Positions 10,571 through 44,819 of a stretch of DNA of 45,120 nt are shown here, in pieces. Both the position numbers and the translations under genes were made by a program. The notes under the pieces are model-generated. The model ran no database searches and was not told where the DNA came from. It saw only the letters and a list, made by a program, of their open reading frames with translations. This DNA is from Bacilli bacterium (GTDB lineage: Bacteria > Bacillota_I > Bacilli_A > RF39 > UBA660). Each line of letters begins with the position of its first letter. Position 1 is the stretch's first letter. The DNA is taken from NCBI GenBank assembly GCA_017397685.1, contig JAFQID010000042.1, positions 1 to 45,120 of the forward strand. Direction: 5' to 3'.

Positions 10571-10745
10571 CCATTATTTTTTATTCGCCCAATTGGAATA
10601 AAATCCATTTATTCCACTTGGGAATACAATAGCATTATTTTTATTTTCTCGGTTTATTATCTACAAATCAAAGTGCCTTTGCATGCCCAAAAGGGCATGG
10701 TCATTTGAAAAGGTTTTCAAATGACATTTCTTACGCTTTACGCCC
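10571..10745 (-). repeat. Conserved 3' block downstream of surface gene P1 (copy A)
   Basis: This non-coding block follows the P1 stop codon and recurs after P2 at 34745-34913, with long identical stretches. It holds three inverted repeats. At 10701-10724 is a 10-bp stem TCATTTGAAA/TTTCAAATGA with a 4-base loop. At 10682-10699 is a 7-bp stem CATGCCC/GGGCATG with loop AAAA. At 10588-10622 is a 15-bp stem with one mismatch and a 5-base loop. The last has no T run on the minus strand, so it is not a normal terminator. Short hairpins just after a variable region are a known requirement for DGR retrohoming. Confidence 0.85.
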
Positions 10746-12278
10746 CTAGCTTTCTACAACGTATGGATTTGTGTACGTTCCATCACCTTCTGCGTTAACC
10801 ATAGTTTCCGCTCTTAAGGAAACTGCCGGAACGAGCGCATTAGTGTCGGACACATCGTAGAAGTTGAAGAAGAGGTAGCCCGTAGAAGACAAGTTGAACG
10901 AATAAGCAATAGAGCCAGTCCAGCGGAACGGACTTATTGTCCAATAATGGGCTCCGGTATATAGATAATATGTACTATTACTAGACCTTTGTCCTCCAGC
11001 AAATGCTACCTCATCTGCTGTTAAAAGTCCTATTGGTTTTGATAGTTTTCCATTTCCTCCCCAACTATCTCCTGCTACCGTATGTTTATCTTCTATGTCA
11101 GCACATTTATATGTTGGCTGTGCATTACTTTTTGCTATTATTGATGAACCTGAATAATCTGTTAACCTATTCGCTGCTCCATAAAATGTATATGATGTAT
11201 ATGAACCTGTTGTTGGTGTTGTAGGATTACTCTTATCTGCACAATATGGTACATTTGCGATTTTGTCTGCATAACTCTCAAGCCCACTTGATGTATACCA
11301 TTCATCTATAGTTGTTTTAGCAAGGCTCTCTCCAGTACCATCTTCCCATATGTATTCGTTATATTTTTGATTATTAAAACTTCCATAAAATGCATAATTT
11401 TGACTATTTATTCTTACAGCTGTTCCTGTAACAGGACATGTTCCATTTGAATATTCTCCATTATATCTTAGTCTTACTGAACCATCTTCATTTGTTCTAA
11501 CTATTCTCCAGCAAAAACCTCCAAATCTTACATTGTTATTTGTTACAGCTCCTCTATAATAATATACTCTATCTCCAGTACCGTCCCCATCTAAATCTTC
11601 TGTTACATCTGTTCTACTTGTATAATAAAGTCCATTTCCATTCGTATCACTAGATATTTGTGAAAAATCTATATTTTCATCACTTTGTCCGCCTTGGTTA
11701 TCCGCAAGTATTTTATCATATAAAGTATATATTCTCTTATCAGTACTCTCTAGTACCAAATTAGCATTTAACTCTGTTCCAAGCATATCAAGTTGATCTA
11801 CTCCCTCAGCATACTCTATCCATATATATAAACTAATAGTTTTTGAAGTATTAGATTTAATAGCTAAATCATTATATATTTGTAATCTCTCTCCATTAAC
11901 CGCACTAGAAAAATTTCCTCCACTCTCAGCACCATCTACAACTACTTTATATTTAAAATATTGATTCTTTAGTTCATTCGATATATTATTAATACTTAAA
12001 TAAATATCATTAGAAGAATCAAGTGAATCTTCAGCATTAGTAATAGTAAACTCTTTTTTATAAGCCATTGAATCAACATACTGAGCATATATAGGTTTTA
12101 AATTACTAACACTAACTGCACTATCAGATAAACTTACATCTAAGCTACCAGTTGTAACTCCAGTCGGATTAACACCATTTTCAATTATTTCCGCACCAAA
12201 ATAAGCAAGTGTTATAACGAGCACACTAGAAACTAACACTAAAATACTTGGCATTATTATTTTCTTATCAATCTTCAT
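10746..12278 (-). CDS. Surface protein P1: anchored N-domain plus C-terminal lectin-like domain with hypervariable segment
   Basis: 510 residues from the ATG at 12278, 10 bases after GAGGTG. The N-terminal signal or anchor helix is followed by a beta domain resembling TasA/camelysin-type proteins ('VTTGSLDVSLS'). The C-terminal ~300 residues are shared with P2 and P3: 'RVYYYRGAV', 'VRFGGFCWRIVRTNEDGSVR', 'NGTCPVTGT', 'YIWEDGTGES', 'WYTSSGL', 'IANVPYCADKSNP', 'WGGNGKLSKPIGLLTADEV', then 'YWTISP' and a final 'GTYTNPYVVES'. Just before the end sits a segment (10830-10935) with codon use quite unlike the rest, described separately. The fold is probably C-type-lectin-like by analogy with DGR target proteins. 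Its promoter has no G tract, unlike P2 and P3. The ligand is unknown. Confidence 0.9.
   Translation of the reverse strand: MKIDKKIIMPSILVLVSSVLVITLAYFGAEIIENGVNPTGVTTGSLDVSLSDSAVSVSNLKPIYAQYVDSMAYKKEFTITNAEDSLDSSNDIYLSINNISNELKNQYFKYKVVVDGAESGGNFSSAVNGERLQIYNDLAIKSNTSKTISLYIWIEYAEGVDQLDMLGTELNANLVLESTDKRIYTLYDKILADNQGGQSDENIDFSQISSDTNGNGLYYTSRTDVTEDLDGDGTGDRVYYYRGAVTNNNVRFGGFCWRIVRTNEDGSVRLRYNGEYSNGTCPVTGTAVRINSQNYAFYGSFNNQKYNEYIWEDGTGESLAKTTIDEWYTSSGLESYADKIANVPYCADKSNPTTPTTGSYTSYTFYGAANRLTDYSGSSIIAKSNAQPTYKCADIEDKHTVAGDSWGGNGKLSKPIGLLTADEVAFAGGQRSSNSTYYLYTGAHYWTISPFRWTGSIAYSFNLSSTGYLFFNFYDVSDTNALVPAVSLRAETMVNAEGDGTYTNPYVVES
10830..10935 (-). other. Candidate DGR variable region in P1
   Basis: Between the conserved Ser-Pro and the conserved Val-Pro, 27 of 33 codons end in C or T, six end in G and none ends in A. 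Adenine is 15 of 99 coding-strand bases, while the same segment of P3 has 34 of 93. This is the footprint expected when a template rich in AAY codons is copied with adenine-specific mutagenesis. The flanking CCGGCAGTTTC and the 3' block are shared with P2. Confidence 0.72.
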
Positions 12279-12319
12279 AATTATTATGCACCTCACATAT
12301 TATTTTTATCTACAACTAT

Positions 12320-34744: not shown

Positions 34745-34913
34745 CCATTTTTTATTCGCCCAATTGGAATAAAATCCATTTATTCCAATTAGGAATACAA
34801 CACATTAGTTTCTTCTTCTAGTTTTATCATCTACAAAACCTAGTGTCCTTACATGCCCTCTGGGCATGGTCATTTGAAATGGTTTTCAAATGACATTTCT
34901 TACGCTTTTCGCC
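34745..34913 (-). repeat. Conserved 3' block downstream of surface gene P2 (copy B)
   Basis: This is the partner of the block at 10571-10745. The same three inverted repeats occur in the same order. At 34870-34893 is a 10-bp stem TCATTTGAAA/TTTCAAATGA with 4-base loop TGGT. At 34852-34868 is CATGCCC/GGGCATG with loop TCT. At 34759-34793 is the long AT-rich stem. The stems are kept while loops change (TGGT versus AGGT; TCT versus AAAA), which suggests selection on structure. Confidence 0.85.
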
Positions 34914-36503
34914 CTAGCTTTCTACAACATATGGATTTGTATACGTTCCTGTACCTTGTGCGTTAACCATAGTTTCCGCTTTTAAAGAAACTGCCGGAAG
35001 CAAGCCAATAGTGTAGTACACAATGCCGCCCTGAAGAACGCCCGTAGAACGCACAGCGAACGAACCAGCACCGCCAGAATCCCAGGAAAACGGACTAATT
35101 AGCCAATAATCGATACTTGTGAATAAGTAATATGATGTATTATCTACCAGAAAACCTCCAGCAAATGCTACCTCATCAGCTGTAAGTAAACCTATTGGTT
35201 TTGATAGTTTTCCATTTCCTCCCCATGTATCTCCACTTACTGTGTGTTTATCTTCTACACGCGCACATTTATATGTTGGCTGGCCATCACTTTTTAAAGC
35301 ATCATTTTCCACATCAATTAATCTATTAAATAATCCATATAATGTATAACCATCAGCGCCATTTACTGGGTTACTCTTATCTGCGCAATATGGTACATTT
35401 GCTATCTGGTCTTCATAATCCTCTAGTCCACTTGATGTATACCATGCATCTATTTGTATTTTGGCATTACTCTCTCCAGTACCATCTTCCCATATATATT
35501 CATTATATTTATGATCATCAACGCTATCATAAAATTTATAAGTTGAATCATTTATTTTTACTTCTGTTCCTGTAACAGGACATGTTCCGTTTTCGTATAC
35601 TCCATTATATCTTAGTCTTACTGATCCGTCTTCATTTGTTCTAACTATTCTCCAGCAGTATCCTCCAAATCTTACATTGTTGTTTTCAACAGCTCCTCTA
35701 TAGTAATATACTCTTTCACCTTCTCCATTGTTGTCAAGATCTTCTGTAACATCAATTCTACTTGTATAATAAAGCCCATTTGTTATTTGAGATTCATCAG
35801 TTACTAAGTTTTCTCCCAACATGTCAAGAGAATAACCTTCTGATGTATAAGCAAAATTAATATTTTCATCACTACTTGGTGTTTGTGCTGTTATTATTTT
35901 ACAGTTTAAGTTATTACTTGATGCTGTGCATCTTTCGTACCATTTTTTTACTTCTGCCACATTTATTTTTGTGCTAAAATGTTTCCCTTGATTATAGTTT
36001 TGTTCTTTATTCATTTCTTTAAAAGTAAATGTAAATGTATATTCATGTGTTATTGAACTTGCTATTGATATTTTACTTGTTATTACGCTATCCGTTGCCG
36101 ATATTGAATAAGGTACTACTTGATTTGATATTCCATTACATGTTCCACTTACAGTTCCTTTATTCGTAGAACTTACATAATCTTTATAGCTAGTACATGT
36201 ATAAGATACCACTAATTCATCTTTTGTTATTTCATTTATTAAATCTTTATATAACAAATCATATTCAGTATCTAATGTTCCAATATTTTTTACACTTACT
36301 ACCTTAGTAACACTTTGTCCTGGGTATGCTCTTGGAAGTGATACTCCATTACCATCTATATACTCCAGTTCTAGTGTTCCAGCAGTTACTACATTTTGTC
36401 TTCCTTCACCAGTAATATTAGTTGAAAAGAATGAATATGTAAAACCTATTATTCCTAATAGTGATAAACCTACTATTATTCCTATTAATATTTTCTTATT
36501 CAT
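34914..36503 (-). CDS. Surface protein P2: phase-variable promoter and hypervariable C-terminal segment
   Basis: 529 residues from the ATG at 36503, eight bases after AGAAGG; the longer frame runs through the 5' leader. The N-terminal anchor 'KKILIGIIVGLSLLGIIGFT' and 'NVVTAGTLELEYIDG' are TasA/camelysin-like and nearly the same as in P3. A beta domain with Cys pairs follows. The C-terminal ~290 residues are the P1/P3 domain: 'RVYYYRGAVENNNVRFGGYC', 'WEDGTGESNAKIQIDAWYTS', 'GKLSKPIGLLTADEVAFAGG' and 'GTYTNPYVVES'. The segment at 34994-35096 has abnormal, adenine-poor codons. Expression is probably switched by the G tract in the promoter. It is the only gene here carrying both features. Confidence 0.92.
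   Translation of the reverse strand: MNKKILIGIIVGLSLLGIIGFTYSFFSTNITGEGRQNVVTAGTLELEYIDGNGVSLPRAYPGQSVTKVVSVKNIGTLDTEYDLLYKDLINEITKDELVVSYTCTSYKDYVSSTNKGTVSGTCNGISNQVVPYSISATDSVITSKISIASSITHEYTFTFTFKEMNKEQNYNQGKHFSTKINVAEVKKWYERCTASSNNLNCKIITAQTPSSDENINFAYTSEGYSLDMLGENLVTDESQITNGLYYTSRIDVTEDLDNNGEGERVYYYRGAVENNNVRFGGYCWRIVRTNEDGSVRLRYNGVYENGTCPVTGTEVKINDSTYKFYDSVDDHKYNEYIWEDGTGESNAKIQIDAWYTSSGLEDYEDQIANVPYCADKSNPVNGADGYTLYGLFNRLIDVENDALKSDGQPTYKCARVEDKHTVSGDTWGGNGKLSKPIGLLTADEVAFAGGFLVDNTSYYLFTSIDYWLISPFSWDSGGAGSFAVRSTGVLQGGIVYYTIGLLPAVSLKAETMVNAQGTGTYTNPYVVES
34994..35096 (-). other. Candidate DGR variable region in P2
   Basis: Between Ser-Pro and Leu-Pro, 24 of 31 codons end in C or T, seven end in G and none ends in A. 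Only 8 of 93 coding-strand bases are adenine. Compared with P1, the constant positions (TGG, GCT, TCG TTC, TCT ACG GGC, GTG, CCG GCA GTT) are kept, while almost every other codon changes at its first two bases. P2 is two codons shorter. Confidence 0.75.
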
Positions 36504-36541
36504 TTTTAATACCTTCTTTCTAAAAGATAAAATAAAAGTGT

Positions 36542-36574
36542 TGCTTAATATAGTTATTTTTCTTATTTTAAGCA
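36542..36574 (-). promoter_or_regulatory. 5' leader hairpin of P2
   Basis: TGCTTAA and TTAAGCA pair around a 19-base AT-rich loop in the 5' untranslated region. P3 has a similar hairpin at the same relative place, so the leader may influence mRNA stability or translation. Confidence 0.45.
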
Positions 36575-36603
36575 TTATTTTTATTTTTTTTACCTTTATA
36601 ACT

Positions 36604-42962: not shown

Positions 42963-44819
42963 TTATTTAACTACATATGGATTTGTATACGTTCCTGTAC
43001 CTTCTTTTTCTATTGCAACTTCCGACTTTAGTGATATTACAGGAAGTAATCTTGCGTAATCATTTGTAGCTGCTCCATATATATTACCTGTAGATGACAC
43101 ATAAAATGTTGATGCTGGTGTATTATCCCATCTTCGTGGACTTATAAGCCAGTACTTTGCTCCTGTTTTTAAATAATAATCTTGGTTTTCTTGGTTATAT
43201 ACTCCACCAGCAAATGATACTTCGTCAGCTGTGAGTAGACCTATTGGTTTTGATAATTTTCCGTTTCCTCCCCATTTATCTCCTTCCACTGTATGTTTAT
43301 CTTCTATATCTTGACATTTATAAGAAGGCTGAGTATCACTATTAATAGAATTATCAACTATATTATATAGTCTATTTGATGCTCCGAAGAATACTCTACT
43401 TGTGTAGTTTCCTGTTGTCGGACTTGTAGGATTACTTTTATCAGCGCAATATGGTACATTTGCTATTTTATCTTCATAGTTAACAAGGCCACTTGATGTG
43501 TACCATGTATCTACTTGAGTTTTTGCTAAACTCTCTCCTGTTCCGTCTTCCCATATATAATCATTATATTTTTCTAAACTAGACTCGGAATAAAAGCTAA
43601 AAAATTTTCCACCTACACTAACTTGAGTACCTGTAACAGGACATGTTCCATTTGAATATGTTCCGTTGTATCTTAGTCTTACTGAGCCATCTTCGTTTGT
43701 TCTAACTATTCTCCAGCAAAAACCTCCAAATCTTACATTATTATTTATTACCGCTCCTCTATAGTAATATACTCTCTCTCCTATTCCATCACCATTTAAA
43801 TCTTCTGTTACATTAGTTTTTGAGGTATAGTGTAGTCCTTTTCCATTTGTGTCAGAAGATATTTCAGCGAAACTTATATTTTCATCACTTTGTCCGCCTT
43901 GGTTATCTGCAATTAGTTTTTCGTAAAGCGTCGGGTTTCTTTCTATTTCTGATATTGTTCCATTTTCATTTATTTTTATATTTAAACTAATTGAGTCAGT
44001 TCCTTCTTTTATTGAAATTTCTTTTCCATTAACACTTGATGTTTCACTAGATATTATTTTTAATGTATCTTCTACTATATAATTTCCATTTTTGTCTTTT
44101 ACTTTAAATTCATGATTTCCTAATTCTACACCTTTTATTTCAAAATATCCTTCGCTATCTGTCATTGTTGTTTTCATTAATGAATGGATTTCAACCATTT
44201 GGTTTGTTAAAGGATTATCTGCATTATCTAATAAGGTCCCTGATAGTGTGTAAGTTGCTTGATTTGTTTCTATTATGTTTATTTTGGAACTAAAATGTTT
44301 ATCTTGATTATAGTTTTGATTATCGTTTATTTCATTAAAAGTTATTGTTATATTATATTCGTGTGTTATTCCGCTTTTTATTGATATATTATTTGTTAAA
44401 TAGCTATCTATTTTACTTTCGCTATGTGGCACTACTTGATTATTTATACTAGCACACGTTCCACTTTCTGTTCCTTTGTTAGATGCATTTACATAATCAG
44501 TATAACTTTTACATGTATATGATATTGTTAGTTCGTTTCCTGTTATTTCGTTAATTAAATCTTTATATATTAAATCATATTTTGCTTCAAGTGTACCTTT
44601 ATTTTTTACACTTATTACTTTTGTTATAGAATCTCCTGGTTTTGCTTGTGGTAATGATATTCCTGGGCCATCTAAGTATTCTAGTTCTAAAGTACCTGCG
44701 GTTACTACATTTTCTTTTCCTTCTCCAGTTATATTAACCGAAAAGAATGAATAGGTAAAACCTATTATTCCTAGTAGCGATAGTCCTATTATTATTCCTA
44801 ATGTTATTTTTTTATTCAT
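42963..44819 (-). CDS. Surface protein P3: phase-variable promoter, no hypervariable segment
   Basis: 618 residues, start ATG at 44819 after GAAGG. The N-terminal anchor and TasA/camelysin-like domain ('TLGIIIGLSLLGIIGFTYSF', 'NVVTAGTLELEYLDG') match P2 closely. A carboxypeptidase-regulatory-like beta domain, absent from P1 and P2, is inserted next ('YTLSGTLLDNADNPLTNQMV', 'TDSEGYFEIKGVELGNHEFK'). The shared C-terminal domain follows, with 'RVYYYRGAVINNNVRFGGFC', 'GKLSKPIGLLTADEVSFAGG' and a 'GTYTNPYVVK' end. Its equivalent of the variable segment (about 43030-43130) uses ordinary A-ending codons, and the gene lacks the 3' hairpin block. It is therefore a fixed relative of P1 and P2. Confidence 0.92.
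   Translation of the reverse strand: MNKKITLGIIIGLSLLGIIGFTYSFFSVNITGEGKENVVTAGTLELEYLDGPGISLPQAKPGDSITKVISVKNKGTLEAKYDLIYKDLINEITGNELTISYTCKSYTDYVNASNKGTESGTCASINNQVVPHSESKIDSYLTNNISIKSGITHEYNITITFNEINDNQNYNQDKHFSSKINIIETNQATYTLSGTLLDNADNPLTNQMVEIHSLMKTTMTDSEGYFEIKGVELGNHEFKVKDKNGNYIVEDTLKIISSETSSVNGKEISIKEGTDSISLNIKINENGTISEIERNPTLYEKLIADNQGGQSDENISFAEISSDTNGKGLHYTSKTNVTEDLNGDGIGERVYYYRGAVINNNVRFGGFCWRIVRTNEDGSVRLRYNGTYSNGTCPVTGTQVSVGGKFFSFYSESSLEKYNDYIWEDGTGESLAKTQVDTWYTSSGLVNYEDKIANVPYCADKSNPTSPTTGNYTSRVFFGASNRLYNIVDNSINSDTQPSYKCQDIEDKHTVEGDKWGGNGKLSKPIGLLTADEVSFAGGVYNQENQDYYLKTGAKYWLISPRRWDNTPASTFYVSSTGNIYGAATNDYARLLPVISLKSEVAIEKEGTGTYTNPYVVK

Follow-up and report, generated by a model that had tools for sequence, protein, structure and literature searches.

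A predicted C-type-lectin-like gene in a small Bacilli genome as a probable remote target of a diversity-generating retroelement

The DNA analysed (positions 1–45,120 of contig JAFQID010000042.1, assembly GCA_017397685.1; 45,120 nucleotides, below called the window) comes from a Bacilli bacterium of the GTDB lineage Bacillota_I; Bacilli_A; RF39; UBA660. Its minus-strand gene P1 encodes a predicted membrane-anchored protein with a putative C-type-lectin-like C-terminal domain, and the 3′ part of this gene has the character of a variable region (VR) of a diversity-generating retroelement (DGR). We consider that this VR was written by mutagenic retrohoming with a reverse transcriptase (RT) encoded elsewhere in the same genome, with a probability of about 0.9. 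A DGR origin is assigned because the segment resembles a template and differs from it mostly at template adenines, and because it ends in a homing-type sequence and is followed by hairpins of the kind seen at the cassette targets. The predicted layout of P1 is an N-terminal membrane helix, a beta-sandwich domain and the C-terminal domain; its features are as follows.

10746..12296, minus strand: P1 target gene; the likely start is the ATG at 12278, giving 510 amino acids as in the database copy P0004
11739..12152, minus strand: predicted N-terminal beta-sandwich domain (residues 49–186), possibly TasA/camelysin-like
10749..11732, minus strand: C-terminal domain (residues 189–516), C-type-lectin-like in the structure model (predicted local distance difference test score, pLDDT, 94.9), with the VR close to its C-terminal end
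10815..10933, minus strand: VR, homologous to the DGR templates TR1 and TR2
10815..10838, minus strand: 3′ end of the VR, resembling an initiation of mutagenic homing (IMH) sequence, GCGCTCGTTCCGGCAGTTTCCTTA
10700..10725, minus strand: post-VR hairpin 1, perfect 11 bp stem, loop ACCT, 89 nt beyond the VR
10682..10699, minus strand: post-VR hairpin 2, GC-rich 7 bp stem CATGCCC, loop TTTT
10588..10622, minus strand: third, imperfect inverted repeat of the downstream module, spotted by eye

Within positions 10830–10935, 28 of the 35 whole codons of P1 end in C or T (NNY), 7 end in G and none ends in A (NNA), and adenine makes up 16% of the coding strand. The original prediction, made from the letters of the window, had placed here a stretch with 27 of 33 codons NNY, no NNA codon and 15% adenine; exactly these figures were recovered in the best 33-codon window inside P1 (GC 47%), and the bounds then given, 10830–10935, are nearly those of the template-homologous stretch. 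Composition was scanned over 36 open reading frames (ORFs) hand-picked from the 55 listed in the window. Among the 11,920 sliding 33-codon windows of this set, the one in P1 was alone in having at least 27 NNY codons together with no NNA codon, and the 27 windows with at most 16% adenine were confined to P1 (4) and its paralog P2 (23). The GC content of the P1 VR is 0.49 compared with 0.35 in the upstream part of the gene, and that of the whole window is 27.6%. A second paralog, P3, which had been described as unlike the P1 segment, indeed has 17 NNA codons among 33 in the matching stretch.

The genome assembly (1.27 Mb, 49 contigs, 94% complete) was searched with RVT_1 and four RTs were found, two of them within DGR cassettes on contigs C23 and C13 and the others on C35 and C49. 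As read from its sequence, C23 carries a complete DGR, in the minus-strand order target gene, downstream module, template TR1, Avd gene (119 amino acids) and RT gene (506 amino acids). C13 carries a second, damaged DGR of the same order, in which the RT is broken into two frames (L041:7125–8220) and the template is gapped.

C23:2455–2567: TR1, non-coding template
about C13:8815–8932: TR2, template with a gap

The C23 RT (L040:337–1857) contains GLPIGNMTSQ, with the TSQ motif, and YMDD; it matches RVT_1 and PHROG 1423 reverse transcriptase (281 bits), and its top PDB sequence match is 8ub7 (chain 'Reverse transcriptase', E 4.4e-24), which we take to be the Bordetella phage DGR RT. Avd matches Pfam bAvd above the cut-off as well as the PHROG 'Avd protein of DGR'. 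The RTs on C35 and C49 (L001:1117–2316 and L003:1273–2610) match UG26 (505 bits) and UG17 (376 bits), both families of defence RTs, and were ruled out as the source, no template-like match being present in the 3.4–3.6 kb around each. The assembly as a whole holds two RTs of the DGR kind, two Avd genes and two templates; a search of viral_contigs by one exact pattern gave no template-like DNA. The original prediction had proposed a search of the genome for a DGR RT with an SQ motif and for a non-coding repeat matching the P1 segment: an RT with TSQ and YMDD lies beside an Avd gene, and the template has A at many of the variable positions. The idea that P1 is diversified by a DGR encoded elsewhere is thus supported by an RT, Avd and templates on other contigs.

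Between TR1 and the target gene of the C23 cassette, 15 of 33 A positions and 0 of 80 non-A positions are changed (p 6e-10). Between TR1 and P1 the counts are 17 of 33 A positions and 12 of 80 non-A positions (p 1.1e-4, the same under neutral scoring), and the controls with C-, G- and T-tolerant scoring gave p ≥ 0.77. The two sequences are identical at 84 of 113 aligned positions (74%), which passes the >50% template-identity rule applied to remote targets in cyanobacteria (PMC7517822). Relative to TR1, P1 also carries two inserted codons near the AAC run. These codons and the non-A mismatches call for another or an older template, in keeping with an early caveat that different templates or older divergence would be needed; on the strength of the mismatches P1 is not classed as a gene on which TR1 or TR2 now acts in trans, and neither is its exact parent.

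Two paralogs in the same window were compared in the same way.

34914..36575, minus strand: P2, paralog with the DGR signature and a low-adenine segment
34983..35096, minus strand: VR of P2
34852..34894, minus strand: post-VR hairpins of P2 (hairpin 1, 34869–34894; hairpin 2, 34852–34868); folding of the 75 nt stretch, z −6.98
42963..44819, minus strand: P3, paralog lacking the DGR signature, an internal control (12 of 35 A and 30 of 75 non-A positions differing, p 0.78)

P2 differs from TR2 at 25 of 37 A and 6 of 79 non-A positions under A-tolerant scoring and at 22 of 34 and 7 of 81 under neutral scoring (p 1.5e-9); its distance from TR2 is smaller than that of P1 from TR1 or TR2. Since A-tolerant alignment favours A mismatches, the paralog comparison was rerun with neutral scoring. 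From 32 family matches, 26 gene 3′ ends were tested, leaving out L019 and L022 (contig ends before the VR), L035 and L039 (second pieces of tested genes) and two rows with no locus (a further piece of the L029 gene, and TR1 itself). An A bias was found under neutral scoring in 11 of the 26, including P1 and P2 (Bonferroni threshold 0.0019), and under A-tolerant scoring in 14. None of the 11 was among those significant with C-tolerant scoring (8 of 26) or with G-tolerant scoring (1 of 26). L012 and L015 just miss the neutral threshold (p 0.0025 and 0.0026); the signal of L023, the alignment of which is heavily gapped, was dropped (neutral p 0.024).

The P1 VR ends in GCAGTTTCC and both templates in GCAATTTCC, with a G in P1 for a template A (GCA[G/A]TTTCC). 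From the VR end to the stop codon there are 66 nt, so that the VR lies near the 3′ end of the gene, and the 75 nt stretch that spans the two hairpins beyond it has a folding z of −4.76. The third inverted repeat has a counterpart in the C23 and C13 cassettes, shortly before the template. This two-hairpin module stands 3′ of the stop codon in 8 of the 26 paralogs, with the GC-rich 7 bp hairpin 2 in all eight and a perfect 11 bp hairpin 1 in five, P1 and P2 included. The C23 cassette target (L021) is alone among the eight in having a GRNA-type loop (GATA), in hairpin 2; its VR is also the only one with a perfect template match at non-A sites.

For the fold of the diversified domain, Foldseek with the P1 C-terminal domain returned no match at E ≤ 0.001, and a PDB sequence search with P1 returned no relatives. 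A VIA-align comparison of the low-ranked Foldseek list weakly supports assignment of the modelled domain as C-type-lectin-like; the known DGR target structures Mtd and TvpA are absent from the rows of this comparison. DUF6273 is present in 4 of the 63 members of the P1 alignment and absent from P1 itself.

Homologs of P1 were compared codon by codon. The nearest, P0005 (88% identical), differs from P1 at 9 of the 13 codons that are Asn in TR1, at 3 of 20 other VR codons and at 38 of 282 in the rest of the C-terminal part; an excess of differences in the VR was also found for P0006 (p 7e-5), P0007 (p 0.003) and P0008 (p 4e-6). P1-family matches at E ≤ 1e-20 number 28 in this genome and 1–3 in each of 17 congeners (completeness 67–93%), in which this RT was not found at E ≤ 1e-40. 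Across 117 genomes of the family the RT is present in 37 and the P1 family in 29, P1-family copy numbers being lower bounds since up to 12 candidates were scored in each genome; the P1 family occurs in 18 of the 37 RT-positive genomes compared with 11 of the 80 RT-negative genomes (p 1.4e-4). Three RT-negative genomes have at least nine P1-family matches, so that this link is not strict. Among named genomes, most of the nearest RTs come from metagenome-assembled genomes labelled as uncultured Bacilli or Tenericutes.

Several results count against the interpretation of P1 as a DGR target. Against three of the seven homologs compared (P0009, P0010 and P0013), P1 has diverged no further in the VR than in the remaining domain, and for three of the 17 congeners without the RT completeness is 76% or less. 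Avd scores 40 bits with the NCBI (NCBIfam) model, below its cut-off of 80. P1 lacks the perfect non-A match to an extant template on which the argument for trans activity in PMC10907252 relies, and the assembly offers just two templates, each with non-A mismatches to P1, so that its exact parent is missing. The 90%-identity cluster of P1 consists of one sequence on five contigs with no VR variant, and the VR of the C23 target is unchanged in another assembled copy despite 10 other residue differences; these unchanged copies count mildly against current rewriting and mean little if the contigs come from the same samples. The odds that P1 is still being rewritten are put slightly below even. It could instead carry a fossil or a borrowed VR, now frozen: P1 may once have been served by a cassette at its own locus, or it may have acquired the VR by recombination with a diversified paralog. 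The module downstream of P1 has no template, Avd or RT adjoining it, decay of a cassette is visible in the split C13 RT, and template-like VRs without the module occur at L011, L013, L014, L015, L018 and L020; the 12 non-A mismatches and the uniform cluster point the same way. The end sequence and the perfect 11 bp hairpin of P1 are intact, however, as expected under continued selection for homing, and its nearest homolog differs from it chiefly at template-Asn codons. A frozen VR is a serious possibility that falls somewhat short of even odds.

The missing parent might also be a third template, or part of a third cassette, that writes P1 and the paralogs sharing its core and that the assembly lacks. 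The core GGC-TCT-NNN-GCT is common to five paralogs (L010, which is P1, L013, L014, L018 and L036), with the variant GGC TCT NNN GCG in L028 and L037; it occurs in neither assembled template, and this points to a third. Contigs C2, C3, C13 and C28 begin inside P1-family genes and C23 is just 4.2 kb long, so that the assembly appears to break at this repeat class and further VRs or templates may be missing; near-identical RTs (99% and 96%) are known from other short contigs. Against this stands the census of the assembly, with its two DGR-type RTs, two Avd genes and two templates, and we hold the third cassette to be a tentative explanation with a substantial minority share of the probability. 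Ordinary diversifying selection, or a local codon or GC bias with no retroelement, is very improbable: surface lectins often evolve fast, but the changes here cluster where a non-coding template has A, the cognate C23 pair has no non-A difference, the P1 VR and the part upstream of it are sharply unlike in GC content, and the C-, G- and T-tolerant controls for P1 are null.

If P1 was written by a DGR acting from elsewhere, a template of the TR1/TR2 lineage, absent from the assembly or since altered, would have been transcribed, and an RT–Avd complex would have copied its RNA with errors at A. With the end sequence and the hairpins as guides, the adenine-mutated cDNA would then have taken the place of the P1 3′ end, to give a varied predicted binding face on a surface-anchored lectin-like protein.

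Some further features of the cassettes were recorded. The C-terminal stretch of the DGR RT resembles Pfam MutS domain I (24.3 bits, cut-off 20.6), as do those of all nine long relatives tested. MutS-like DGR accessories have been reported; a literature search for DGR with MutS showed no such report among the papers listed. A full-length RT (P0125) that resembles the split C13 RT is encoded on another contig. The C13 cassette lies among chromosomal genes, its neighbours presumably being ruvB and an acyl-CoA-ligase-like gene. It adjoins a PDDEXK_2 transposase-family gene (L041:6082–6951), the N-terminus of which recurs nearly identically in a fragment beside the C23 cassette (L040:3–164), so that the duplicated unit may include this gene.

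Related RT loci were collected (n = 110, with some duplicates between collections) and an A-specific template–VR pair was found nearby at 56; the controls gave one C-specific and one G-specific pair, T being equal to A by strand symmetry. At 30 of the 56 VR flanks there is a hairpin with a stem of at least 9 bp and a 4 nt loop that starts 78–113 nt beyond the VR, and at all 30 the loop is ACCC, ACCT, CTCT, CTCC, CTCA or CCCT, with 25 distinct stem sequences; the other 26 flanks had no such hairpin. Random windows from the same loci contained such a hairpin in 58 of 2,748 cases, 10 of those with a loop of this pattern. The RT is long (≥430 amino acids) in 9 of the 12 cases with an ACC loop and short in all 15 with a CTC loop (p 4.7e-5, for 28 templates each counted once from the VR flanks in L043–L130 and L161–L183, with shared ancestry left in and with the loop pattern and the 430-residue cut chosen after the data were seen). 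The three ACC-loop exceptions have RTs of 370, 374 and 427 amino acids. The genome of the window agrees with the pairing of ACC loops and long RTs, having ACC loops and a 506-residue RT with the MutS-domain-I-like tail.

As in the Bordetella phage BPP-1 DGR (PMC3240598, PMC12875486), an RT, Avd and a template are associated with A-specific changes in a C-type-lectin target (here a predicted one), with an end sequence at the VR 3′ end and an inverted repeat downstream of the VR. Unlike the BPP-1 arrangement, P1 is on a different contig from the cassettes, and the loops of its lineage, ACCT in P1 itself, are not GRNA. The homing hairpins described in the literature have GRNA (PMC3240598) or GRA (PMC4372165) loops, and a literature search for DGR with 'tetraloop' had the latter paper as its one match. 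The nanoarchaeal DGRs described there likewise occur in a small genome that has, at other sites, RT-less fragments with A-specific changes, and their hairpin loops (GRA) are also lineage-specific; loop sequences and targets differ from those here. Both the non-GRNA hairpins and the tail of the RT seem to be traits of the lineage. The DUF6273 C-type-lectin targets of the gut phages nd4 and nd12 (tentaclins, tgt2; PMC10743442) likely belong to the same superfamily as P1, and nd12 is among the nearest phage RTs to the DGR RT here (33% identity); those targets are phage proteins, whereas P1 has an N-terminal membrane helix and is from a bacterial assembly. DGRs with remote targets, and genomes with many targets, are already known: 76 of 121 diversified genes in cyanobacterial DGRs are remote (PMC7517822), Thiohalocapsa PB-PSB1 has nine DGR loci and 15 targets (PMC10907252), and 271 of 948 DGRs in a genome survey have multiple VRs (PMC6642488). 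Both the cyanobacterial and the Thiohalocapsa systems have, like this one with its predicted lectins, dispersed C-type-lectin paralogs, some with no RT or template nearby; here the lineage is different, the genome is small, the targets are predicted to be membrane-anchored and a perfect non-A template match is limited to the C23 cassette target.

It is conceivable, though unlikely, that the hairpin module is a portable address label recognized by the matching RT type, so that a single DGR lineage acting in trans could recruit the lectin genes that bear it. At least 11 surface lectins scattered over the 1.27 Mb genome would then form a repertoire written by DGRs, in which templates are replaced over time and earlier versions persist as an archive, and across the family the label would have two codes, an ACC loop with a long RT that has the MutS-domain-I-like tail and a CTC loop with a short tailless RT. 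More generally, a signature in raw sequence (a stretch free of NNA codons and poor in adenine, towards the end of a lectin-like gene) can point to a remote DGR target when the template is out of view, and a multi-target DGR lineage is added for very small Bacilli-like genomes. A fixed-loop hairpin that varies with RT type offers a handle for remote targets overlooked by cassette-based surveys, one of which states that its own approach is unable to detect them (PMC8144416).
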